The notes beneath the pieces were generated by a model. That model was not told the origin of the DNA. It saw only the letters and a program-made list of their open reading frames with translations, and did no database searches. Positions 146 through 63,257 of a stretch of DNA of 63,257 nucleotides are shown one piece after another. Position 1 is the first letter of the stretch; the number at the start of each line of letters is the position of its first letter. The translations under genes were made by a program, and so were the position numbers. The stretch covers positions 1-63,257 of the forward strand of contig NZ_ADGX01000044.1 in assembly GCF_000177675.1 (NCBI RefSeq), written 5' to 3'. This DNA comes from Parafrankia sp. EUN1f (GTDB taxonomy: Bacteria > Actinomycetota > Actinomycetes > Frankiales > Frankiaceae).

Positions 146-507
146 CGTTCACCACAGGACCCGCTCGCTCGGTGCTCGACGGGTCCGCCGGGGATGCTGC
201 GGCGCCGCCCGGCACCGGCGATCCATGCCTATAGGTGTATATGGGACAGGGTGCCACTTGGTGATCCGCAAGATCTGAGGATTTCGGCTGTTGCAGCAGC
301 CGAAGTTTTCTGTTCTTGCTCGGAAGCGGCGGCGGCGGCGTCGGAAGCGGCGGCATCGCCGGATCTGCCGTCGCCCTGGGTCTCGCTGCCGACTCCCTGG
401 TAGCCGCGATCATCGGATCCTCGCCCTGCGGCAACGGGATGCCGGCACATCGTGCGGTCGGCTACTCCTGAGATGCGGCCCCTGAGACGCGGTCGTCAGT
501 CGCACAG
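146..507. other. Intergenic stretch between rRNA operon and icmF
   Basis: No convincing gene is seen. The short reading frames here are Ala/Arg/Pro-rich and overlap on both strands. The stretch holds one degenerate copy of the palindromic repeat family (266-323) followed by a GCGGCGGCGGC-type low-complexity patch. Confidence 0.6.
266..323. repeat. Palindromic repeat family, copy 1 (degenerate)
   Basis: CAAGATCTGAGGATTTCGG on the left is followed by an imperfect right arm (297-323) whose reverse complement starts CCGAGCAAGA. The left arm matches the copies near 45565 and 62589, and the right end matches the outer edge of the copy at 62586. It can fold into an imperfect hairpin with a short loop. 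Confidence 0.65.
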
Positions 508-10923: not shown

Positions 10924-13373
10924 ATGGGCTCCGGGCGGACCTGGACTTTGCTGATGGGGGGCCCTCGGCCGAGCGGCGGGCCGTCGGGGCTGTCCGAGGC
11001 GTCTGGGCTGTCCAGATCGCCCGCATCGTTGTCCGCCGTCTGGGCGATTGTGGGCGGGGCGCTGGGATGCCTGTCCGCACTCGCGATCATTGCGGTCGCG
11101 GCCAGCCATGGCGGGTTCGACGATCTCGGGGTGGCATTCGCGCTTCTCGCCGGGCTCACCGTCGTCGTCGGCCCGCAGCCGCATCCGTCGCTGATGCCGT
11201 CCGCATCGGCGCAGATCACCGGGCCACTGCCAGGGTCTGGGGCGGGGTCTGGGCTGCTGTCGGGGCCGGGGCCGGGTCCGCGGCGACCCAGGTGGTGGGT
11301 GGCGGCACGGACCTCACGGGCACCTTCCTGTTCGCGATTCTGCTCGGCTGGGGTGCGGCGCCGGCGCTGGCGGTCCACCTCGTCGTGGGTGTTCTGCTGG
11401 AGCTGCCGCGACGGAGTTCGCTGGGGCGTGTGGTGGCCCGGGTGGGGCGTCGCGCGCTTGGGCTCGCCGCGGCCGGGGCCGTCGTCGCGGCGTTCGGTCT
11501 CGACCACACCCTCGGTACCGCCGAGCTGCCCGCTGTCGCCCTCGCCGCGCTGGTGCTGTTCGTTGTCGATGACCTGGCCGGCGCCCCAATCGGGCCGCTT
11601 CGGTCGCGCGGGCCGGTTCGGCCTGCTCGGCCGAACCGGCTGGGCCGTCCGGGCGCGCGTGTCGGCGGAGCTGCCCGTGGCCGGCGGAACGACATCCGCG
11701 GGGGCGGTAACGGTGGGAGCGGTAGCCGTGGCGATGCATCGTTCCGTCTGCTGTACAACGAGCTGCATCGGCGGCTGGCGGTCGCCGCGGCCCTGCTGTC
11801 CCTGGCGCCGTTGATCGTGATCGCCGCCGGGCGTGGTCCTTGGCTGGCGCTGCTGCTCCTGCCCGCGCTGCGGGTGGTGACGAGGGTCGGTGAGGGTGCG
11901 CGGCAGAAGGAGCATGAGGCCCGTCACGACGGGCTGACCGGCCTGCCGAACCGGACCGCGCTCGCCGAGCGTGCGGCGCTCAGCATCGCGGCGGCGGAAC
12001 GGACCGGTACTCGTGTCGGGTTGTTGTTGCTCGATCTCGACCGGTTCAAGGAGGTCAACGACCGGCTCGGGCACGATGTCGGCGACCGTCTGCTGGTTGT
12101 CGCCGCGGCTCGTCTCGCCGCTGCCCTGCGCCCCGGGGACGTTGTCGCGAGGCTCGGTGGTGACGAGTTCGCGGTGCTGCTTCCGTGGCTTCCACCCGGC
12201 GCCGACGGCCGTGCTGTCGCCACCGAGGTCGCCGGGCGGGTGCGCGGTGTCGTGCGCGCGCCGTACGAGATCGACGGTCAGTTCTGCGACATCGATGTGA
12301 GTGTCGGCGTGGCGCTCTACCCCGATCACGGCGCCGATCTGCCAGCGCTGTCGCAGTCCGCCGACATCGCGATGTACGCGGCGAAGGAGCATGGGCTCGG
12401 GGTCCAGGCCTACGGCCCCCGTGACGCCCGCCGGGCCCGGCTGCGTACGCGGACCACGGCGGAGCTGGGCTACGCCCTCGACCACGGGCAGCTCGAACTG
12501 CACTACCAGCCTCAGGCGGAGATCGTCGACGGAAGGGTGCGCCGAACCGAGGCGCTGCTGCGTTGGCGGCACCCGAGCCGCGGTCTGCTGCTGCCGGGAG
12601 TCTTCGTTCCGCTCGCCGAGTCCGCCGGTCTGATCCGTCCAATCACCTCCTGGGCGATGGACACGGCGCTGACCCAGACCGCCCGGTGGCACGCGGCCGG
12701 GATCCCTGCCGCCGTCGCGCTGAACGTTTCCCCGCGTGATCTGCGCGACCCCGGATTCGTCGGGTCCGTCGCGAGCGCGCTTGCCGCCAACAACCTGCCA
12801 CCGGGCGCACTCACCTTCGAGGTGACCGAACGGGCGCTGACCGCTGACGGCGACGGGGCCGCCCGCGCGCTACGGGATCTGGTCGACCTCGGCGTGACCG
12901 TGAGCCTGGATGACTTCGGTACCGGACTGATCTCCCTGGACGCCCTGCGTCGCCTGCCGATCGGCGAGATCAAGATCGATCGGACGGTGATCGGCCGGCT
13001 GGGCGCCGATCCCCGAGACGCCGTCACGATGGGCCTGGCCGATGGGGAAACCGTGGCCTGGGAGGCGGCTACCCGGGAGGTCGCCTTCATTCGTGCCGTG
13101 GTGCGGATGGCGTCCGACCTCGGGATGCGCGTCGTGGCGGAAGGCGTCGAGACACCGACGGAGTGGTGCCAACTCGCCGGGTTCGGCGCGGACGCCGCGC
13201 AGGGCTGGCATGTGGCGCCGGCACTGCCCGCGGCGTTGGTCACCCGGTGGCTGGTCGAGCCCGGCCAGGCCCGCGAGCGTCTCACCGGACATCGTCCCGG
13301 TGATGCCCGCCGGGTGGACTCCCGGCACGGCGTGTCACAGAACGCAGTGGTGAGCCTGAGCCGCGACGGCTGA
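10924..13373 (+). CDS. Membrane GGDEF-EAL c-di-GMP protein, apparent N-terminal frameshift
   Basis: The downstream frame (continuous from 11067) encodes membrane helices, then a GGDEF domain (LDLDRFKEVND, LGGDEF near 12150-12170) and an EAL domain (EALLRW, NVSPRDL, DDFGTG, AEGVET). Both catalytic signatures look intact, so synthesis and hydrolysis of c-di-GMP are both possible. From 10924 to about 11215, however, the protein-like sequence lies in another frame (VWAIVGGALGCLSALAII is a good membrane helix), while the 11067 frame there is Arg-rich noise. One extra G in the GGG run near 11219-11221 would join the two frames into one protein. So this is either a real frameshift or a sequencing error; if neither, the gene starts inside the 11067 frame. 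Confidence 0.75.
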
Positions 13374-16572: not shown

Positions 16573-18086
16573 GCACATCGGCTCCCGTCATCGCCACTCC
16601 CTCCTATGAGGACGCCACCGCGCGCTACGAGGCGGTGATCGGGCTGGAGACCCACGTCGAGCTCGGCACCGCCTCCAAGATGTTCTGCGGGTGCGCGACG
16701 GTGTTCGGCGCGGAGCCGAACACCCAGGTATGCCCGGTCTGCCTGGGCCTGCCCGGGGCGCTGCCGGTGGTGAACGAGGCCGCGGTGCGGTTCGCGACGC
16801 TCATCGGGCTCGCGCTGAACTGCACGATCGCCTCCTGGTGCCGGTTCGCCCGGAAGAACTACTTCTATCCGGACATGCCGAAGAACTTCCAGATCAGTCA
16901 GTACGACGAGCCGCTGTGCTCGAACGGCTGGCTTGACGTCGAGGTCGAGGGGGAGATCCACCGAGTCGGGATCACCCGGGTCCACCTGGAGGAGGACACC
17001 GGCAAGTCGCTGCACGTCGGCGGGGCGACCGGGCGGATCCACGGAGCCACCCACTCCCTGGTCGACTACAACCGGGCCGGCATCCCCTTGGTGGAGATCG
17101 TCACCGAGCCCGACATCCGGCATCCCGAGGTCGCTCGGGCCTACGTTGACGAGCTGCGGGAGCTGTGCCGGGCGCTGGCGGTCTCGGACGTGCGGATGGA
17201 CCAGGGCTCGCTGCGCTGTGACGCGAACGTGTCGCTGCGGCCCCGGCCCGCGGCAGGGCAGCCGGACGCGCCGTTCGGCACCCGTTCGGAGACGAAGAAC
17301 CTCAACTCGCTGCGTTCGGTCGAGCGGGCTGTCCGCTTCGAGATCGTGCGCCAGGCGGCGCTGCTGGACGCCGGCGAGCGGGTCATCCAGGAGACCCGGC
17401 ACTTCGACGAGGCGTCGGGCCGCACCTCCTCTGGCCGGTCGAAGGAGGAGGCGACCGACTACCGCTACTTCCCGGAGCCGGACCTGACGCCGCTCGCGCT
17501 CACCTCGGAGTACGTCGAGGCGCTGCGCGCAGTCCTGCCGGAGCTGCCGGCGCAGCGGCGGGCCCGGCTCGTCGCGGAGCTCGGCTACACCGCCCGTGAG
17601 CTGCAGGAGATGCGCAACGCCGGGGTGCTGGAGCTGGTCGAGGCGACGGTGGCCGCAGGCGCGAGCCCGGCCGGGGCGCGCAAGTGGTGGCTCAACGAGC
17701 TGGCGAGGCGCGCCTCGGATGCCGGTGTCGAGCCGCGTGAACTGGCGATCAGCCCGGCCCAGGTGGCCCGGATCTGCGAGCTCGTCGCTGAGGGGAAGCT
17801 GACCGACGCGCTCGGGCGCAAGGTCGTCGACGGCGTGCTCGCGGGTGACGGCTCGCCCGACGAGGTCGTCGCCGCGCGGGGGCTGGCCGTGGTCTCCGAC
17901 GACTCGGCGCTGCGCGACGCGGTTGACGCCGCGATCGCGGGCGCGCCCGACATCGCGGACAAGGTCCGGGGCGGCAAGCTGAACGCGGTGGGGCCGCTCG
18001 TCGGCACGGTGATGAAGACGATGCGTGGCCAGGCGGACGCCGCGGCCGTCCGCAGGTTGCTGCTGGAGCGGCTGGAAGTCTCCTGA
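16569..18086 (+). CDS. gatB: Asp/Glu-tRNA amidotransferase subunit B
   Basis: The tRNA-binding and kinase/transamidase subunit of GatCAB (505 aa). [13 protein letters not shown] is the family N-terminus, [13 protein letters not shown] the conserved cysteine block, and the C-terminal GatB/YqeY region ends with [23 protein letters not shown] start overlaps the previous stop by 4 bases. Having GatCAB implies that Gln-tRNA (and perhaps Asn-tRNA) is made indirectly, which fits the nearby tRNA-Gln and tRNA-Glu genes. Confidence 0.96.
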
Positions 18087-18123
18087 CCCCTGCGGATCCG
18101 GCAGTGTGCGACGATCGTCGGTG

Positions 18124-19035
18124 ATGTCTGGAACCACGCGGGGGCGCCTGCTCGCCACCAGCGATATCCATGTTCGCCATCCGGAGAACCGGGCGATCGT
18201 CGAGGCGATGCGGCCGGGCCATGACGATGACTGGTTGCTCGTGGTCGGCGACGTCGGCGAGCGTCTCGACGACGTCGAATGGGCGCTGCGGTTGCTCGCG
18301 GGCCGGTTCGCCCAGGTCGTGTGGGTGCCCGGCAATCATGAGCTGTGGACGTTGAGCCGGGACACCCTGCTCCTGCGCGGTGAGGCCCGTTACCGCCATC
18401 TGGTCGACCTGTGCGCGGGCCTGGGAGTTCTCACCCCCGAGGACCCCTACCCGATCTGGACGGGGCTGGGTGGTCCCGTGCGCATCGTGCCGATGTTCCT
18501 GCTCTACGACTACACGTTCCGTCCCGAGGGCACCTCGAACAAGGAGGAGGCGCTCGCCGCGGCGTACGCGGCGGGCGTGGTGTGCTCCGACGAGTCGGTG
18601 CTGCACTCCGACCCCTATCCGACCAGGGACGACTGGTGCCGGGCTCGGGTCGCGCAGACGCGCGTCCGGCTGGACGAATGCCCCCGGGACGTCCCCCTCG
18701 TACTCGTGAACCATTTCCCGCTGGTGCGTGAGCCCACCAGGATCCTGCGCTACCCGGTGTTCGCGCAGTGGTGCGGAACCGAGCTCACCGCGGACTGGCA
18801 CACCCGCTACAACGTCGCCGCCGTGGTCTACGGTCACCTGCACATTCCTCGGACGACCTGGTATGACGGCGTCCGGTTCGAGGAGGTCTCGGTGGGCTAC
18901 CCGCGTGAGTGGCGCAGCTGGCGGACCCGACGACCGGTGTTGCGCCAGATCCTGCCCGCGCCGATCGGTGAGCGCGTCCCGCCCTGGGGCGCGACCCGGG
19001 ACGAGTCGGAGTCCGCGGTGGTCCCGCCGGGCTGA
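18124..19035 (+). CDS. Calcineurin-like metallophosphoesterase
   Basis: About 303 residues with the five metal-binding blocks of the family in order: SDIHVRH, VVGDVGER, GNHELW, VNHFPL and YGHLH. The substrate is unknown. It begins 35 bases after gatB. GTG 18121 directly before the ATG is an alternative start. With GACGAT 6-11 bases upstream and no Shine-Dalgarno, a leaderless transcript is possible but weakly supported. In Streptomyces such proteins often neighbour a phosphopantetheinyl transferase; none is seen here. Confidence 0.85.
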   Translation: MSGTTRGRLLATSDIHVRHPENRAIVEAMRPGHDDDWLLVVGDVGERLDDVEWALRLLAGRFAQVVWVPGNHELWTLSRDTLLLRGEARYRHLVDLCAGLGVLTPEDPYPIWTGLGGPVRIVPMFLLYDYTFRPEGTSNKEEALAAAYAAGVVCSDESVLHSDPYPTRDDWCRARVAQTRVRLDECPRDVPLVLVNHFPLVREPTRILRYPVFAQWCGTELTADWHTRYNVAAVVYGHLHIPRTTWYDGVRFEEVSVGYPREWRSWRTRRPVLRQILPAPIGERVPPWGATRDESESAVVPPG

Positions 19036-19231: not shown

Positions 19232-21094
19232 GTGCCCCTCACACCTACGGGGTTCGGTCCGTCCCGGTCGCGACGCAGGGGGCGGGGGCGCCGGGGCCTG
19301 CTGGCCGCTGGTCTGGTGCTCGTGCTGGTGGCGGTTGGTGGCGGTCTCACCTACTGGCTGAAGGAACGGTCGGACGCACGCGCGGCTGACCGCGCGGTGG
19401 TCTCGGTGGCCGCGGCCTATCTGGAGGCCTGGAAGGCGCTGACGATCGCGCCGTCCGCGGCCGAGGAGTCCGACACGGCTGCCGGCGGGACCGGAGCCGC
19501 TGCCGGCGGGACCGCAGCCGGCGGGACCGCAGCCGGCGGGACCGCAGCCGCTGCCGGCGGAACCGCTGCCGGCGGAACCGCTGCCGCTGCCGGTGGGACC
19601 GGCGGTGGCGATGCCGCGGCCGGTCAGGCCCGCGCTCGGGCCGGTGCCGCGGTCAGCGCGGTCAGCGTCGACGGCGACGTCCCGGTCGCGACACTGGTCG
19701 GGCTGATGTCCGACGTTCACGATCGGCTCTCGGTCACCAGGGCGGAGTTCGTCGCGGGGAAGGCGGCTCGCTCGGGGGCGAGCGCCACCGTCCCCTACAC
19801 CGCGACCCTGACGCTCGCCGGATTCACCGAGCCACTGACGTACTCCGGTTCGCTAGGCCTGACCCGGGCCGGCGGCGACACCTGGAAGGTGCGGGCGGCG
19901 CCGTCCTCGGTGCACCCCGACCTCAAGCCGGGCCTGCACCTGGACCGCACCGACTCCACCGGTAAGCGGGGGGCGCTGCTGGACGTGAACGGGCGTCCCA
20001 TGGACACCAACCCCGAGCTCGCCGGGAACCTCATCGGCCGGATCGATCCGGCGTCCGGCCTGCAGCGGGTCTACGACTCGCGGCTGCGGCCCCAGGGCGG
20101 CTCGGTGGTGGTCCGCACCGATGGCAACGAGACGGTCAAGACCCTCAAGGCCTACCCGAGCAGCGACGGCGAGGCGATCCGCACCACCATCAACCTGGAC
20201 GTCCAGCGTGCGGCCGAGGCGGCCCTCGGCACCGCCGCCCAGCCGAACGGGGCGCTGGTCGCCATCGACACCCGGACCGGCGGGGTGCTCGCGGTCGTGA
20301 ACCGCCCGATCAACGGATACGGGCGGGCGGTTCGCGGGTCCTATCCGCCCGGTTCGACGTTCAAGATCGTGACGGCGACGGCAGCGCTGATGAACGGCAA
20401 GACGGCGGACACCCCGCTCGACTGCACCGAGAAGGTGAGCATCGGCGGGCGGGAGTTCCAGAACGCCGAGGCGGAGCAGTTCGGGATGATCCCGTTCCGC
20501 ACGGCCTTCGCCAAGAGCTGCAACACCGCGTTCATCCGGCTGGAGCAGTCGCTGCCCGACGGCGCGCTTGAGCAGGCCGCCAAGCTGTACGGCTTCGACG
20601 ATGTCGAGCCGCTGCCCATCGCCAGCGTCGGCGGCTCCTTCCCGACCCCGCGCGACGACGTCGAGGCTGCGGCCGCGTCGATCGGGCAGGGCCGGGTCGC
20701 CGCGTCGCCGTTGCAGATGGCGAGCGTCGCCGCCGCCGTGGCCAGCGGTACCTGGCGCCAGCCGTTCGTCGTGGGGGAGGCGCCGCGCAGCAACGCTCTG
20801 CCGGCGCAGGCCCTGGGGCCGCTGCGCGACTTCATGCGGGCCGTGGTCACCGAGGGGACGGCGGCGGGGGTCCCGATGCCGGGTGAGGTCGGCGGCAAGA
20901 CCGGTACGGCCGAGTACGGGAACGGGAACCCCCCGCCGACGCACGGCTGGTTCGTCGGATACCGCGGTGACATCGCGGTCGCGACGGTCATCGAGGACGG
21001 TGGTTTCGGTGCCGAGTCCGCCGCGCCTGTGGTCTCCAAGTTCTTCACCGCTCTCGACGGTGGCCAGATCACGGCGCCCGCCGCGGCGGGCTGA
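19232..21094 (+). CDS. Penicillin-binding protein (transpeptidase) with NTF2-like N-terminal domain
   Basis: A 620-residue membrane-anchored D,D-transpeptidase for peptidoglycan cross-linking. Order: short cytoplasmic Arg-rich tail, one membrane helix (about 22-42), a low-complexity linker of repeated AAGGT pentapeptides, an NTF2/MecA_N-like domain, the PBP dimer region, then the transpeptidase with SxxK (S375-K378, STFK), SxN (S429-C430-N431) and KTG (556-558). No glycosyltransferase domain, so class B-like. GTG 19232 has GGGGGGAGG 9 bases upstream; longer in-frame starts lack this. Confidence 0.9.
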   Translation: MPLTPTGFGPSRSRRRGRGRRGLLAAGLVLVLVAVGGGLTYWLKERSDARAADRAVVSVAAAYLEAWKALTIAPSAAEESDTAAGGTGAAAGGTAAGGTAAGGTAAAAGGTAAGGTAAAAGGTGGGDAAAGQARARAGAAVSAVSVDGDVPVATLVGLMSDVHDRLSVTRAEFVAGKAARSGASATVPYTATLTLAGFTEPLTYSGSLGLTRAGGDTWKVRAAPSSVHPDLKPGLHLDRTDSTGKRGALLDVNGRPMDTNPELAGNLIGRIDPASGLQRVYDSRLRPQGGSVVVRTDGNETVKTLKAYPSSDGEAIRTTINLDVQRAAEAALGTAAQPNGALVAIDTRTGGVLAVVNRPINGYGRAVRGSYPPGSTFKIVTATAALMNGKTADTPLDCTEKVSIGGREFQNAEAEQFGMIPFRTAFAKSCNTAFIRLEQSLPDGALEQAAKLYGFDDVEPLPIASVGGSFPTPRDDVEAAAASIGQGRVAASPLQMASVAAAVASGTWRQPFVVGEAPRSNALPAQALGPLRDFMRAVVTEGTAAGVPMPGEVGGKTGTAEYGNGNPPPTHGWFVGYRGDIAVATVIEDGGFGAESAAPVVSKFFTALDGGQITAPAAAG

Positions 21095-21207
21095 GACCGG
21101 GCTGGATGCCCCGCGCCGGCCGCCGGGCCTGGGTCGACGCGGGGTCTCGCCGGCGCCGGGATCCGGCCGGCGCGGTGTGGTCTGGCTCTCCGGTCACCAC
21201 CCCCCGC

Positions 21208-43467: not shown

Positions 43468-45201
43468 ATGTCCTCCGCCAGCCCCTCCATGCCCGCACGG
43501 GCGCGCCGCCGTCACGGCAGTGCCCATGTAGGGCGCGCCGCCCGGCGGCCCGAGAAGCCTCGGCCGTCCCGGAACCACGCGGCGGATTCCGGGCTGGCCG
43601 CGTCGGGTGTCGACACCACGTCCCGTGGGCCGGTCTCCTGGTTCCCCCGGGGCCGGGGCCTGCCCACGGAGGACTGGGCCGCCCGCCACTCCCTGATGTG
43701 CTGGGTGCTCGCCCTCCACCTGCCGGCGATCGTCGTGTACGGCCTGTGGCGTGACCACAGCCTGCCACACGGTGTCCTGGCCGCCAGCCCGCCCGCGCTG
43801 CTGTTCGGTGCGGCGCTGGTGCCCGGCATGCGCCGGGTGCGGGCCCTCGCGGCGAGCCTGGGGCTGCTGTGCTGCTCCGTCGTCTTCGTGCATCTCTCCG
43901 ACGGCCAGACCGCGATGTACTTCCACTTCTTCGTCGTGGTGGCGCTCATCGCCCTCTACGAGGACTGGACCGTCTACCTGCTGGCGATCGCGTTCGTGTT
44001 CCTGGCCAGCCTGGAGATCGGCGACATCGTCACCGCCGAGGCCGCGGGGCGGATGGAGGACAACGCCCTGGTGCTGGCCGGCCTGCACGCCGGCTTCATC
44101 TGCGCCCTCGCCGGCGCCCAGATGGTCTTCTGGCACTACAACGAGCAGTCCCGCCGGCGGGAGGAGGACTACCGCCAGCAGCTCTACGAGGGCCAGCAGA
44201 GCCTCATGGCCCGGCTGGAGGAGACCGACCGTATCCGCAGCGACCTGGTCGCGACGGTCTCCCACGAGTTCCGGACGCCGCTGACGGGAATCCGCGGCAC
44301 CCTGCTGACCATCCGGCGCCGCCGCGACCGCCTCTCCGACGCCCAGCTCGACGGGATGCTCGACTCCGCCGTCACCTACTCCGACCGCCTGTCCAGGCTG
44401 CTGGAGAACATGCTGACGGCGGCGACCGCCACCGGAACCGACGACAACACCGTCGCCGACCTACCCGAGGTGGTCCGGGACGTCATCGCCGGCCTGACCT
44501 ATGCCGGCAACAGCGTCACCGTGGACCTGCCGCCCCAGCTCTCCGTGCGGATGGCCCGCCAGGCCCTCCACCAGGTCGTCGCGAACCTGGTGGACAACGC
44601 GCTCGTGCACTCCTGGCCGGGCGCGCCGGTGCGGCTCATCGCGGGCCGGGTCGGCGACGAGGTGGTGCTCCGGGTGCGCAACCCCGGGCCGGACCTCGAT
44701 CCGGCGACCATCCGCCAGCTCTTCGAGCCGTTCACCCAACGGGACGGGACGGCTACCCGCCAGACCGACGGTGCCGGGATGGGGCTCTACGTCGTGCGGC
44801 GCCTGGTCGAGGTGCACGGTGGCCGTCTTCGGATGTCCTCGGAGAACGGCGAGATCATCGTCGAGGTCGACCTGTGGGCAGCCTCGCCGGCCGCCGCCAC
44901 GGGTGCCGCGGAGCCAGCTCCCATGCCGGTTCCGATGCCTCTCCCGCGCAGTCTGCGCACCCGGGGCGACCTGCCCGACCCGCCGGCTCTGCCCGCGGGC
45001 TCCGGAGCTCTGCTCCGGCCCCGGGGTGGCCCTTCCGGCAGCGGCGCGGGCTCACAGGTGCCGACCCCGACGCCGGCGAACTTCCCCAAGCCGTCCTCCG
45101 CCCGGCTGCCCGCCGTACCCCCGGCTCCGCCGGGCCCGCGGGCAGCAGCCGAGCCGGCGCAGGGGTGGCCGTCATCGCTGCCCGCCGACTGGGTTGGCTG
45201 A
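43468..45201 (+). CDS. Orphan sensor histidine kinase
   Basis: 577 residues. The N-terminal half has about five to six membrane helices (for example FFVVVALIALYEDWTVYLLAIAF). A coiled linker follows, then HisKA with the phospho-acceptor His266 (VSHEFRTPLTG), and an ATPase domain with N-box NLVDNALVHS and GAGMGLYVVRRLVEVHGG. The last ~110 residues are a Pro-rich tail. No response regulator is adjacent. The ATG follows GGGGGAA by about 10 bases. The signal is unknown; the membrane domain suggests a membrane-borne or small lipophilic cue (inference). Confidence 0.9.
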   Translation: MSSASPSMPARARRRHGSAHVGRAARRPEKPRPSRNHAADSGLAASGVDTTSRGPVSWFPRGRGLPTEDWAARHSLMCWVLALHLPAIVVYGLWRDHSLPHGVLAASPPALLFGAALVPGMRRVRALAASLGLLCCSVVFVHLSDGQTAMYFHFFVVVALIALYEDWTVYLLAIAFVFLASLEIGDIVTAEAAGRMEDNALVLAGLHAGFICALAGAQMVFWHYNEQSRRREEDYRQQLYEGQQSLMARLEETDRIRSDLVATVSHEFRTPLTGIRGTLLTIRRRRDRLSDAQLDGMLDSAVTYSDRLSRLLENMLTAATATGTDDNTVADLPEVVRDVIAGLTYAGNSVTVDLPPQLSVRMARQALHQVVANLVDNALVHSWPGAPVRLIAGRVGDEVVLRVRNPGPDLDPATIRQLFEPFTQRDGTATRQTDGAGMGLYVVRRLVEVHGGRLRMSSENGEIIVEVDLWAASPAAATGAAEPAPMPVPMPLPRSLRTRGDLPDPPALPAGSGALLRPRGGPSGSGAGSQVPTPTPANFPKPSSARLPAVPPAPPGPRAAAEPAQGWPSSLPADWVG

Positions 45202-45208
45202 CTCTGCC

Positions 45209-45350
45209 GTCTGTCAGCCCGGCCGTCTGTCAGCCCGGCCGCCTGTCAGCCCGGCCGCCTGTCAGCCCGGCCGTCTGTCAGCCCGGCCGTCTGTCAGCCC
45301 GGCCGTCTGTCAGCCCGGCCGTCTGTCAGCCCGGCCGTCTGTCAGCCCGC
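45209..45350 (+). repeat. Nine-copy 16-bp tandem array
   Basis: G(T/C)CTGTCAGCCCGGCC is repeated head to tail eight times plus a partial ninth, starting 8 bases after the histidine kinase stop. Copies 3 and 4 carry GCC in place of GTC; the others are identical. There are no spacers, so it is not a CRISPR. Such arrays vary in copy number by slippage. Confidence 0.95.
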
Positions 45351-45455
45351 GGAGCGGCGCCGGGCTGGTGCCGCCCCGCCGGTGTGACAGGGGTCGGGCG
45401 ATCTACTCGGCTACGGCGATCTACTCGGCCACGATGCCCCACGCACGAGCGCGAT

Positions 45456-45527
45456 CCTTGCTACCGGAGAAAACCTGAGGATTTTGGTCTCTGGAACGAC
45501 CAAGATCCTCAACACTCAGAGTCGAAG
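45456..45527. repeat. Palindromic repeat family, copy 2
   Basis: TTGCTACCGGA leads into CTGAGGATTTTGGTC (45476-45489), matched with one mismatch by GACCAAGATCCTCA (45498-45511), the two arms being separated by about 8 bases containing TGGAAC. It lies between the histidine kinase and the Ser/Thr kinase stop and partly overlaps the latter's end. It may also serve as a terminator between convergent genes. Confidence 0.85.
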
Positions 45528-47843
45528 CCTCGAGTTGCCGCAGTGGCTGGCGTTGCTACCGGACAAGATCTGAGGATCCCGGTTGCCAGAACGACCAAAA
45601 TCCTCAGATCTTCGAGCCGGCGCGGCCGGCGTCACGGGCGGGCGCAGGAGGACGGCGCCCGTCAGGTTCGGATGCCCGTCAGGTTCTGGGGCCGTCGTCA
45701 CCGGGGCGCTTGTCACCGGGGCCGGGGCCGGTGACGCGAGACACTTCGGCTCCAGCCAGACGTTCTCGCCCTTGTGCTTCATGGTGCCGGCCGAGGGGGT
45801 GGTACCGGCCGCGGTGGTGCCGGTTCCCCACTGGCAGCCGCCCCCGCCGTCCAGAACGCCAAGCCCCGCGCCGGTCAGCGTGCTGCGGGCCGCGCTGAGC
45901 GAGCTGCCGGCGACGGACGGGACCTCGACGCAGTCCGTGGCCTGCACGGTCAGTGTGACCTTCGTGGAGACCGGGACGACGCTGCCGGCGTTGGGGCTCT
46001 GACCGAGCACGATCCCGCCGCTCTTGCCCTTCTGGCAGGTCTCGCTGGTCGCGACGTTCGTGAAGCCCTTGCCGCTCAGTGCGCTCGTCGCGGCTGACTT
46101 GCTCTGGCCCGTCACGTCGGGGACGGTCCCGTCCTTGGCCGTCGGCGAGGCGGAGGCGCTCGCGGTCGCGCTCGGGGAGGCCGTCCCGGACTGGGTGGCG
46201 CTGGCGCCGGGCGAGGTGCTCTGGCCGGGACGGCTGGATGCGGTGCCGCGCGCCGCGCCGGTGGAGCGCCCGTCCGTGCCGGCGGCCGGCGGGGCCATGC
46301 CCGGCGGCATCGGGCTGCCGCCGGGAAGGGTCGCGACCGCGGACGGGTCGGTGAGTATCTGCTGGTTGCCGTCCGCGGTCAGGGCGGTGTCGTTGCCTCC
46401 GGCGGCGGCCAGCGCCCAGCCACCGGCTCCGGCGACGAGGGCCACGACCAGTCCGGCACCGGCCGCGATGCGGCTGCGGCGGCGGCGGTCGGCCGCCGAA
46501 CGGCCGCTGGGTGCGCCCGCTCCCGGCGGTCCCGCGGGTGCGGAATCCTTGCTCTTCGAGATCACCGTGTTGCGGTCGGAGGCCGAGCCCGCCGAACGCG
46601 CGGGAACCCGGACCGCGGGCTGGGCCCCGGTGGCGGCGTCGGACCAGTCGGCGCCGGCGCCCGGGCCGGTCCCGGCACCAGCGCGGTCCGGCCGCACGGG
46701 CGGCATCCCGGCGATCTGCGTGTGCGCCGCGGCATCCCAGTCGGCGCGGGCCGGTGGAATGCCGGCGACCTGGGTGTGCGCGGCGTCGTTCCAACCGGTG
46801 TGGGCGCCGGTCGCGTCCCCACCGGCGGCGAGCAGGCTGGTCGCGGCGACGGGGGCGATCCCACCGACCTGGGTGAGCGCGGCGTCGAAGGCGGCGTCGC
46901 GTCCCGCGGCCGTGCCGTGCCGACGTCCGGCTGCGCCCGATCGGCTGGCAGCGCCGGGTCGCTCGGCCCGGTCGATCCGGGTGGTGTGGTTGTTGTTGCC
47001 GGAGTCCTGGTCGAAGTCGTGGTCGCGGTCGTCGTCCTCGAGGGCGTCGAGCAGGTCCTCCGCCGCGTCCGCCGCGGTGGCCGGGCGTTGCTTCGGCGAC
47101 TTCGCGAGCATCGAGGCCAGGACGTCCCAGACCGCCGCCGGCACACCCTGGATGGGCAGCGGCTGCTCCTCGCGGTGCGCCCGCATCAGGTCGGCGGGAT
47201 GCGCGTGGTCGAACGGGGGACTGCCGGCGATGAGCTCGTAGAGCACGACTCCGGCGGCGTAGATGTCCACCGAAGGTGTCGGTGGGACGTCGTCCGCCAG
47301 CTCGGGTGCCATGTAGAGCGGGGTCCCGATCGGGCCGGTCAGTGATGCCCGGCCCGGGGTGTGGATCATGCGGGCCACGCCGAAGTCGGTGAGCCGCACG
47401 TAGGGACGACGCGGATCCGAGGTGTCGATGAGCACGTTCTCGGGCTTGACGTCGCGGTGGATGATGCCCGCGTCGTGCACGCTGTCGAGCGCCCACAGCA
47501 GGCCGATGACGAGGCGGGCGGCCTCGGTCACCGGGCGTGGGCCGCTCTGGTCGAGGTGCGCGCGCAGGTCGATGCCCTCGACGAGGTCCATCACGATTGC
47601 CAGCGTGCCGGGCTCCTTGATCAGGTCCCGCACCCGCACCAGTTCGGGGCTGTCAAGCTGCACCAGGAGGTCGCATTCGCGGAGGAACCGGTCGACGACC
47701 TCCGGATCATGCGCGAGTTCCGGCCGGAGAACCTTGATAGCCACCGGCTCCCCGTCGGGGACGTGGGCCCCGCGCCAGACCTGGCCGGCAGTGCCCTGCC
47801 CGATCAACTCGTGCAGGACGTACCGCGAACCCAGTTTGCGCAC
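45516..47843 (-). CDS. Membrane Ser/Thr protein kinase with two PASTA-like domains
   Basis: 775 residues. A Hanks-type kinase domain has Lys37 (VAIKVL), HRD 129-131 and DFG 153-155. A cytoplasmic linker contains three TQ(V/I)xGI-type repeats. A membrane helix at about 457-482 is followed by a Ser/Thr-rich stalk and two PASTA-like domains (from TVPDVTGQSKSAATSALSG and from VEVPSVAGSSLSAARSTL), each with a pair-forming Cys. PASTA kinases sense peptidoglycan fragments and control cell wall growth and division. GTG 47843 follows GGGGGAAAGG; the frame stays open upstream to 48530 but is Arg-rich there. The last ~32 residues come from palindromic repeat copy 3 and its flank. Confidence 0.9.
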   Translation of the reverse strand: MRKLGSRYVLHELIGQGTAGQVWRGAHVPDGEPVAIKVLRPELAHDPEVVDRFLRECDLLVQLDSPELVRVRDLIKEPGTLAIVMDLVEGIDLRAHLDQSGPRPVTEAARLVIGLLWALDSVHDAGIIHRDVKPENVLIDTSDPRRPYVRLTDFGVARMIHTPGRASLTGPIGTPLYMAPELADDVPPTPSVDIYAAGVVLYELIAGSPPFDHAHPADLMRAHREEQPLPIQGVPAAVWDVLASMLAKSPKQRPATAADAAEDLLDALEDDDRDHDFDQDSGNNNHTTRIDRAERPGAASRSGAAGRRHGTAAGRDAAFDAALTQVGGIAPVAATSLLAAGGDATGAHTGWNDAAHTQVAGIPPARADWDAAAHTQIAGMPPVRPDRAGAGTGPGAGADWSDAATGAQPAVRVPARSAGSASDRNTVISKSKDSAPAGPPGAGAPSGRSAADRRRRSRIAAGAGLVVALVAGAGGWALAAAGGNDTALTADGNQQILTDPSAVATLPGGSPMPPGMAPPAAGTDGRSTGAARGTASSRPGQSTSPGASATQSGTASPSATASASASPTAKDGTVPDVTGQSKSAATSALSGKGFTNVATSETCQKGKSGGIVLGQSPNAGSVVPVSTKVTLTVQATDCVEVPSVAGSSLSAARSTLTGAGLGVLDGGGGCQWGTGTTAAGTTPSAGTMKHKGENVWLEPKCLASPAPAPVTSAPVTTAPEPDGHPNLTGAVLLRPPVTPAAPARRSEDFGRSGNRDPQILSGSNASHCGNSRLRL
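45551..45613. repeat. Palindromic repeat family, copy 3 (within a coding region)
   Basis: TTGCTACCGGACAAGATCTG leads into GAGGAT (from 45572), and the right arm GACCAAAATCCTCAGATCTT spans 45593-45612. The outer 13 bases are perfectly paired. This copy is read in frame as the C-terminal tail of the Ser/Thr kinase. Confidence 0.88.
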
Positions 47844-48282
47844 TGCGCCTTTCCCCCTTTGACTGCCGTGGGGAGCCTGACCGGTGTGAGCCTGCGCCCC
47901 GTCGTGACGGGGACCCGGCAACCGCAGCGCGCCGACGTGCCTGCCGTCGCTGGGATTGCGCATGGCCACTGGCGCCGCGTCCGACCGGAGCGATCGGCCT
48001 GGAAGCACATCGGGCCGGGCACTCGCAGCCCCGGCCGGAAACCGCGGAGCCACGGTCAGGCCGAACCGTGCGACATCCATGTCCGTGGGTGGACAACCGC
48101 TCGGAAACATCGATCCTGACTGTTGACCACCAAAGGCTACGACGTCGCATCTCACCCGGTTGCGTCGGGGTCCCGCTGACGCTTGCCGCTGTGGCTGGAT
48201 TGCGCTCCGCCATGCCCGCAGGTGGTGTTCACGGCGAGAATCCAGTGATTTTCCTGTGTGTTCGCGGACCGGCATTCTCCGG
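47844..48282. other. Upstream region of the Ser/Thr kinase gene
   Basis: Open but unprotein-like (Arg/Pro/Ser-rich) on the minus strand. TAGCCT on the minus strand (48139 to 48134) is a possible -10 element, which would give an untranslated leader of about 280 bases. Nothing else is recognised. Confidence 0.4.
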
Positions 48283-49059
48283 CTATCCATCGTGACTTCG
48301 GGTACTTTCCCGGGGGGTCGCGTTCTGATCGTCGGGATGCGGCGGGCGCGGCGCAACCGGCGCGCGCGGCGCTGACAGCTGCCGGGCCGCGGCGACGACG
48401 ACCGGGCCGTGGCGCCGTCCCGGCGACCGGGTGAGCCGTTCGACCGGTCCGGAAAGCGACACCGCGGCGACCAGGCCCGATCCGTCGAAGACCGGGGCTG
48501 ACACCGAGGCCAGGCCGGGCTCGCGCTCACCGACGCTCTCCGCCCAGCCGCGCCGGCGCACCCTGGCCAGGATGTCCGGGGCGAACGTGGCGCGGGCCAG
48601 CAGATCGGGCTCGGCGGCGTCGGTGAAGGCGAGGAGGACCTGCGCGCCCGATCCGGCGGTCATCGGCAGGGTCGCGCCGACCGGCACGGTGTCGCGAAGG
48701 CCGGCGGAGCGTTCCGCCGCGGCGACGCACACCCGGACCGGGCCGCGCCGAACGTAGAGCTGGGTACTCTCGCCGGTCTCGTCGCGCAGGGCGGTCAGAA
48801 TCTTGCCGGCCGCGTCCAGCATCTCCCAGGGCAGCGCGGCGGGGCTGCCGGCGGCGAGCCGAGGTCCGGGAACAAAACGCCCGGCCGCGTCGCGTGCCAG
48901 CAGCCGGTGGACCTCCAGAGCGCTGGCGAGCCGGTGGGCGGTGGCTCGGCTCAACCCGGTCTGGGCGACGAGGTCGCGCAGGTCGGCCGGGCCATGCTCC
49001 ACAGCGGTCAGAACCAGGGCGGCCTTGTCCAGCACGCCGACGCCGCTACTATGTTCCAT
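48283..49059 (-). CDS. ndgR: IclR family regulator, NdgR type
   Basis: 258 residues. The N-terminus SSGVGVLDKAALVLTAVEHGP and HTH (LSRATAHRLASALEVHRLL) match the NdgR/LtbR group of actinobacteria. The ligand domain has CVAAAERSAGLRDTVPVG and RRRGWAESVGEREPGLASVSAPV. NdgR-type regulators control leuCD and other amino-acid genes; here leuC is divergent, with the shared 220-base region as control site. The C-terminal ~25 residues are a variable Pro/Arg tail. An ACTATG-TTC-CATAGT palindrome covers its own start codon. Confidence 0.92.
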   Translation of the reverse strand: MEHSSGVGVLDKAALVLTAVEHGPADLRDLVAQTGLSRATAHRLASALEVHRLLARDAAGRFVPGPRLAAGSPAALPWEMLDAAGKILTALRDETGESTQLYVRRGPVRVCVAAAERSAGLRDTVPVGATLPMTAGSGAQVLLAFTDAAEPDLLARATFAPDILARVRRRGWAESVGEREPGLASVSAPVFDGSGLVAAVSLSGPVERLTRSPGRRHGPVVVAAARQLSAPRAPVAPRPPHPDDQNATPRESTRSHDG

Positions 49060-62548: not shown

Positions 62549-62583
62549 TGCGAGCCGTGAGCTGCAAGCCGCCGCTGCTGCTG

Positions 62584-62626
62584 CCGAGCAAGACCTGAGG
62601 ATTTTGGTCGCAGGAACGACCTTGCT
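62584..62626. repeat. Palindromic repeat family, copy 4 (right arm mostly lost)
   Basis: The left arm CAAGACCTGAGGATTTTGG starts at 62589, followed by the TGGAAC-like centre (GCAGGAACGACC, to 62621). The expected right arm is missing: after GACC the sequence goes straight to TTGCT. Either 14 bases were deleted inside the arm (TTGCT would be its outer end) or the insertion sequence begins here. Confidence 0.8.
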
Positions 62627-63257
62627 GGTTTATTCGGGCTGTGGGGGTGCGAGTCCGGCTTGGCATGGCTGGTCGGGTTTGAGCGGGTCTGTGGTGCGGC
62701 CGGGGGTGTTGGGTCGGCCCAGGGTGAGGGTGTCAGGGTCTGTCAACTCTCGCGCAACACCCGGGACGGTGTGCTGGTCGTGGGGTGTCGGGTCGGGAGG
62801 ATGACGGTCGTGTCCCTGCAGCCGAGACCCTGGCCCGAGGTCCCACCGCTGACCGCGCGGGTCGCGCGTGCCGCGTCCCCGAAGGGGAACCTGGCGATGC
62901 GTATCCGTGACGAGCTCGGTGTGGTCTACGAGGACGGGCGGTTCACCGGCGCGTTCGGGGTGCGGGGCCGGCCGGGGATCTCTCCGGCCCAGCTGATGAT
63001 GGCCACGGTTCTGCAGTTCTCCGAGAACCTCACCGACCGGCAGGCCGCGGACGCGGTCCGCGACCGGATGTCGTGGAAATACGCGCTCGGTCTCGATCTC
63101 GACGATCCGGGGTTCGACGCCAGCGTGTTCTCGGAGTTCCGCGCGCGGCTGGTCGAGGGGGAGTCTGGCGACCCACGCGCTCGACGCGCTTCTGGCGCGT
63201 CTGGTCGCCGAGGGGCGTGCTCAAGGCGGGCGGGCGGGCGCGCACCGACTCCACCCA
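62622..63257 (+). mobile_element. Insertion sequence, IS1182-like, left part
   Basis: The transposase fragment at 62810-63257 places an IS1182-family element at the right edge of the window. The left boundary is a guess at the point where the palindromic repeat stops matching. Terminal inverted repeats cannot be identified because the right end lies outside. Confidence 0.55.
62810..63257 (+). pseudogene. IS1182 family transposase, N-terminal part with two apparent frameshifts
   Basis: GTG 62810 with GGGAGG 9 bases upstream opens a frame with ARAASPKGN, RGRPGISPAQLMMATVLQF, NLTDRQAADAVRDRM and DASVFSEFRARLVEG, the IS1182 N-terminal region. After VEGE (63161-63163) an extra T near 63164 breaks the frame. 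Removing it restores LATHALDALLARLVAEG. An extra C near 63215 breaks it again before VLKAGGRARTDSTH. Two close single-base insertions at the window edge may be sequence errors or genuine decay. The catalytic residues would lie outside. Confidence 0.8.

Follow-up and report, generated by a model that had tools for sequence, protein, structure and literature searches.

We found that the gene for a PASTA serine/threonine kinase in Parafrankia sp. EUN1f, as sequenced, lacks the stop codon present in most of its orthologues and is read on through a palindromic repeat. Comparison with related genomes indicates that the repeats were very probably already in place at the gene's end when the stop disappeared, with the loss falling in the stretch ahead of the repeat in EUN1f and the open reading frame (ORF) reading on across the nearer copy. 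The analysis covers a window of 63,257 nucleotides, which is a whole contig (C353) of the EUN1f draft genome (9,352,740 bases in 396 contigs). ORF and gene calls were made in-house from codon-position G+C. The genus was represented by one genome per species, and six of these genomes, including that of EUN1f, contain the kinase gene. The closest relative in the set is the 9.5 Mb genome G004, which matched the window at 94% identity across 2127 of 2224 query bases.

The kinase ORF occupies positions 45516–48530 on the reverse strand (ORF call and Pfam); the gene call in G004 starts at the equivalent of position 48155. Within its 1004 residues, Pfam placed a protein kinase domain (PF00069) at residues 237–485 (E 5.9e-50) and its sole PASTA match (PF03793) near the C-terminus, at residues 802–862 (E 5.9e-17). 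A second PASTA-like unit, extending up to EPKC, is visible from the orthologue alignments only. A candidate membrane segment, RIAAGAGLVVALVAGAGGWALAA, judged by eye, would place the PASTA units outside the cell. The end of the ORF reads ...EPKC-LASPAPAPVTSAPVTTAPEPDGHPNLTGAVLLRPPVTPAAPA-RRSEDFGRSGNRDPQILSG-SNASHCGNSRLRL followed by the stop, which leaves 74 residues after the last PASTA cysteine. The first-pass annotation had placed one repeat copy, its copy 3, in frame at the 3' end of the gene and had derived the final residues from a spacer, and a codon map confirmed both points. The 19 residues of RRSEDFGRSGNRDPQILSG are the in-frame reading of a 55-nt repeat match at 45558–45612 (forward strand; BLAST and model search), and the 13 final residues, SNASHCGNSRLRL, come from the spacer between this copy and a second one, 95 nt away in the same orientation (45463–45517, forward strand; model search). 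The stop codon of the ORF (45518–45516) overlaps the edge of that second copy. Counted from position 45681, the ORF continues for 54 residues, with 22 ahead of the repeat, 19 on the repeat and 13 on the spacer.

Beyond the six genus orthologues, the match score in the family drops from 192 to 65 bits; the named kinase relatives are Parafrankia colletiae, P. soli and Frankia sp. EI5c. The distance from the last cysteine to the stop (loci L088–L093) is 74 residues in the window and 263 in G002, the two of the six genomes without the usual stop, and it is short in the other four. Among these, G001, G003 and G005 yielded no repeat match near the kinase in a model search of L003–L005, L032, L034 and L035, and they stop 23, 12 and 21 residues past the cysteine. 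This is near the place shortly after the second PASTA unit where repeat-free orthologues had been predicted to end. The tail of the EUN1f kinase was absent from all five other orthologues, so that no repeat-free gene carrying the same tail was found among them. Because G001, G003, G004 and G005 all stop 12–23 residues past the cysteine, this stop is taken as ancestral.

The comparison with G004 separates the repeat from the loss of the stop. Both repeats are present there (C5:465110–465164 and C5:465205–465259, locus L040), matching the window in their 95-nt spacing and in orientation; the G004 kinase stops 77 nt before the first of them, 16 residues past the cysteine. The cysteine codon and the near repeat are separated by 128 nt in either genome; therefore this repeat stands in the same frame relative to the kinase in both species. 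Since G004 has both repeats behind an intact stop, they would already have stood in place, and in this frame, when the stop disappeared, unless that of G004 was regained. The change itself would lie in the stretch ahead of the repeat, because G004 stops before the same repeats although they lie equally far from its cysteine codon. The proposal that a palindromic repeat became the tail of the kinase thus survives only in part: 19 residues do lie on the repeat, but the repeat was very probably not the cause, as G004 has the same repeats and an intact stop, and 22 of the 54 residues are pre-repeat sequence and 13 are spacer. Replacement of the stop codon by the incoming repeat, as first proposed, would fit the in-frame position of the repeat within the ORF and the early stops of the three orthologues without it. 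On the simplest history, however, this is contradicted by G004, which stops ahead of the same repeats in the same frame; its stop would have to have been regained at a place, and with a sequence, resembling the stops of other species, and we regard this explanation as highly improbable.

We then compared the 128 nt that separate the codon of the last PASTA cysteine from the repeat (45613–45740, reverse strand); this stretch changes fast and lacks the in-frame stop seen in the orthologues. Ungapped, the window and G004 agree at 63 of 128 bases; counted per 16 bases from the cysteine side, the identities are 13, 11, 8, 4, 8, 5, 5 and 9, with most at the start. In a gapped comparison, the stop context of G004, CCAGGACCTGACAGG, resembles CCAGAACCTGACGGG in the window, which lies out of frame and 11 nt further downstream; an 11-nt difference in the opposite sense follows. 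The best ungapped match equalled this stop-context match in 77 of 1000 shuffles. The kinase of P. colletiae ends within GAACCTGACGGGC, which occurs twice in the window, out of frame, and the 13 identical bases that it shares with the stop context of P. colletiae were equalled in 31 of 1000 shuffles. The out-of-frame TGA at 45681–45679 (reverse strand), within AACCTGACGGGC, is a likely, though not a secure, relic of the old stop, the matches being weak by these shuffle tests. An imperfect 17-nt tandem duplication spans 45655–45693, with copies at 45655–45676 and 45672–45693 (77% identity) and an out-of-frame TGA in each copy.

These comparisons suggest a history in which the ancestral kinase would have ended in a short tail rich in proline, alanine and threonine, 12–23 residues past the last PASTA cysteine. 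Two palindromic repeats would have settled downstream before EUN1f and G004 separated. Later, and in EUN1f only, a change between the cysteine and the near repeat would have removed the stop. The most likely route would be an insertion ahead of the old stop (about +11 nt relative to G004), putting its TGA out of frame, together with an equally large compensating change beyond that TGA, as the stretch is 128 nt long in both species. The ORF would then have run on over the nearer repeat and ended at a TGA that happens to lie at the second copy's edge. We infer both the order of these events and the indel route. With equal lengths of 128 nt, no net frameshift separates the kinase from the repeat, and residues 2–1001 of the window ORF align as protein past the G004 stop in a single frame; substitutions or a replacement of the stretch may therefore have removed the stop instead. 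The loss of one base ahead of the relic stop was considered as well, and this candidate was weakened by the equal length in G004 and the marginal match of the relic.

An error of assembly or base calling would also remove a stop from the sequence, in which case the true gene would stop before the repeat and the repeat would be purely intergenic. The genome is a draft in many contigs, the stretch is C-rich, and in G002 the stop was likewise lost in a C-rich tail. Elsewhere in the window, a GGDEF-EAL gene that is intact in G004 is split between two frames (11230–11310, at 11276), next to G/C runs. Among 229 unfiltered gaps, those of non-triplet length number 123 with bases missing in the window and 62 with bases missing in G004, many of them pieces of larger gaps. 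Against an error, one-base indels are balanced once isolated by requiring 8 identical flanking bases, a filter that excludes both the kinase tail and the 11276 site: among 24 isolated indels, 4 such bases are missing in the window and 5 in G004. The stretch also has exactly the G004 length, so that a lost base would need a coincidence, and because of this equal length we grade an error as unlikely. In a survey of frameshifts, which is blind to changes at the very end of a gene, 41 of the 42 G004 gene calls in the matching stretch were found in the window, 40 of them in one frame and one, the GGDEF-EAL gene, split. The reverse comparison gave a second frame in 2 of 37 window calls, namely the GGDEF-EAL gene and 20 residues at the start of the ORF at 18025–19035.

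The composition of the tail changes along its length. Codon-position G+C is 0.73/0.60/0.90 in the kinase, compared with 0.52/0.61/0.58 over repeat and spacer; the 25 codons before the repeat (PEPDG...APA) give 0.88/0.64/0.80 and are not clearly non-coding. An open run of at least 54 codons was kept in 39% of 5000 Markov-shuffled intergenic sequences (median 40), and an open run of the length of the tail is not remarkable. At the orthologue loci tested, the two other frames beyond the stop stay open for 13 to 118 codons, one of them leaving the available sequence; in the window, the third frame shuts after 5 codons. Given the long open runs in the shuffles and in the other frames, a long read-through is therefore expected once a stop is lost. 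We infer that the predicted extension is most likely neutral, and we propose no function for it; the tail looks like a chance product of a fast-changing stretch and not of the repeat.

The second genome without the usual stop bears on whether the extension could function outside the cell as a part, perhaps a variable one, of the sensor kinase. The stop was lost within the same Pro/Ala tail in two of six genomes, which would make the end of this gene changeable. However, no constraint was seen, and the G002 extension looks like junk; its C-runs are short for phase variation. The G002 ORF, which separately lacks the stop (L033, reverse strand from position 1690; L092), crosses a hairpin-like stretch and in part overlaps, in antisense, the end of the convergent gene for a histidine kinase. 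We consider a functional extension very improbable. Equally doubtful is the broader proposal that stops have been lost repeatedly in the C-rich Pro/Ala tail across the genus, with lineages switching between short tails and long extracellular extensions that change fast and derive from downstream intergenic or repeat sequence.

The convergent gene of the window, for a histidine kinase (ORF call; matches to the HisKA and HATPase_c domains), lies at 43468–45201 on the forward strand. Between this gene and the repeats, at 45206–45349, a 16-nt unit like GCCGTCTGTCAGCCCG occurs nine times in tandem; the array was not evident in the matching G004 stretch.

The repeat belongs to a large family with the consensus GCCGAGCAAGATCTGAGGATCnTGGTCGCCnGAACGACCAAAATCCTCAGATCTT. 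BLAST with the copy at 45558–45612 gave at least 62 matches in the EUN1f genome, with the best 40 of 179 initial candidates scored. Our repeat model, R2, was built on a hand-written structure and scored this copy at 76.5 bits (E 8e-16 over 182,061 bases), beyond what chance would give, the copy itself being among the training rows of the model. The model search also found copies at 270–324 (reverse strand) and, weakly (25.7 bits), at 62583–62631 (forward strand). We examined 67 copies from the window and 36 EUN1f loci, chosen from the 62 BLAST matches and covering part of them (a match on C352 near 52.9 kb, for example, was left out). Forty-eight copies spanned both ends and 19 did not; one of the 48, with an insertion, was excluded, which left 47 in the alignment. 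Our ORF calls place 26 copies between tandem genes, 23 between convergent and 5 between divergent genes, and 11 at edges; 2 touch an ORF. Thus 65 of 67 are outside ORF calls, and of the two that overlap one only the kinase copy is embedded. Neighbouring copies on the same strand are spaced by 83–84 nt (9 pairs) or 93–99 nt (8 pairs), and the two classes, 83–84 and about 95 nt (L010–L058; window 45463–45612), differ by approximately one helical turn.

The aligned copies form an imperfect palindrome, with 86.9% of pair cells paired. Their covariation (0.080) did not exceed that of shuffles (0.076 ± 0.005; as high in 78 of 500), so that the EUN1f copies lend no support to a structured RNA, and RNAalifold did not recover the hairpin. 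Between the copy at 45558–45612 and its G004 counterpart (L040, 18111–18165), four outer stem pairs differ by eye, with both sides changed and the palindrome kept; these paired arm changes may reflect a different subfamily or a concerted change of the arms. Within 45000–46000, no intrinsic terminator was found, and no Rfam family matched at the gathering score.

Model R2 gave at least 150 matches each in EUN1f and G004, including double hits on both strands. Of the 33 further Frankiaceae genomes (35 in all), G023 showed a single weak match (E 2e-4), and 32 showed none among the best 150 candidates scored per genome. On these sequence searches, which include the window copies and L010–L059, we judge the family to be a lineage-specific expansion in EUN1f and G004. 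Near 21.1 kb of the window (21094–21204, against L042 2605–2889), two copies are present in G004 only, and the window copy at 270–324 (region 150–481) is absent from G004. Neither place could be read as a clean insertion site, since the flanks are too diverged for boundaries to be visible.

REP elements and BIMEs are short, imperfect intergenic palindromes that occur in many copies, often in close pairs. The repeat family described here, being multicopy, intergenic, imperfectly palindromic and closely paired, resembles them by description. In contrast to a REP element with its RAYT, however, it comes without a PF01797 (Y1 transposase) match in the EUN1f draft (0 matches among 6 candidates in EUN1f, 2 in G004), which argues against that assignment. 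By title, the literature that we surveyed on palindromic or extragenic repeats in Frankia and on EAN1pec insertion sequences included no such family, most subscription journals being outside its scope, and the portion available of a paper on Frankia insertion sequences (PMC2770080) describes none.

A close parallel is enhC of Coxiella burnetii. According to the accessible part of the source, the palindromic element QMITE2 provides the C-terminus in one strain, with 33 residues attributed to it, and another strain that has the repeat stops immediately ahead of it, an indel being decisive (PMC5896051). The kinase likewise has a repeat in frame at its 3' end and a relative, G004, with the same repeats that stops before them, whereas the organism, the repeat and the protein are different and 19 of the 54 extra residues lie on the repeat. 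The two cases are nearly the same, and the kinase tail would be one more example, predicted from its sequence. The Rickettsia palindromic elements are the better-known palindromes within proteins, integrating frequently into genes by the part of the account available (PMC10969869); the kinase repeat is similarly read in frame within a protein ORF, but only 1 of our 67 copies is embedded in an ORF call. Non-coding sequence is also taken into recent de novo protein C-termini, described in the consulted portion of PMC4494051 with no mention of a repeat, and the kinase end is alike in that non-coding sequence enters it.

We suggest that no function be read into the annotated C-terminus of this kinase prior to resequencing. 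The gene offers a worked example that an in-frame repeat at the end of a gene need not have made that end. The repeat family itself may be of more interest than the kinase tail, and it merits a study of its own.
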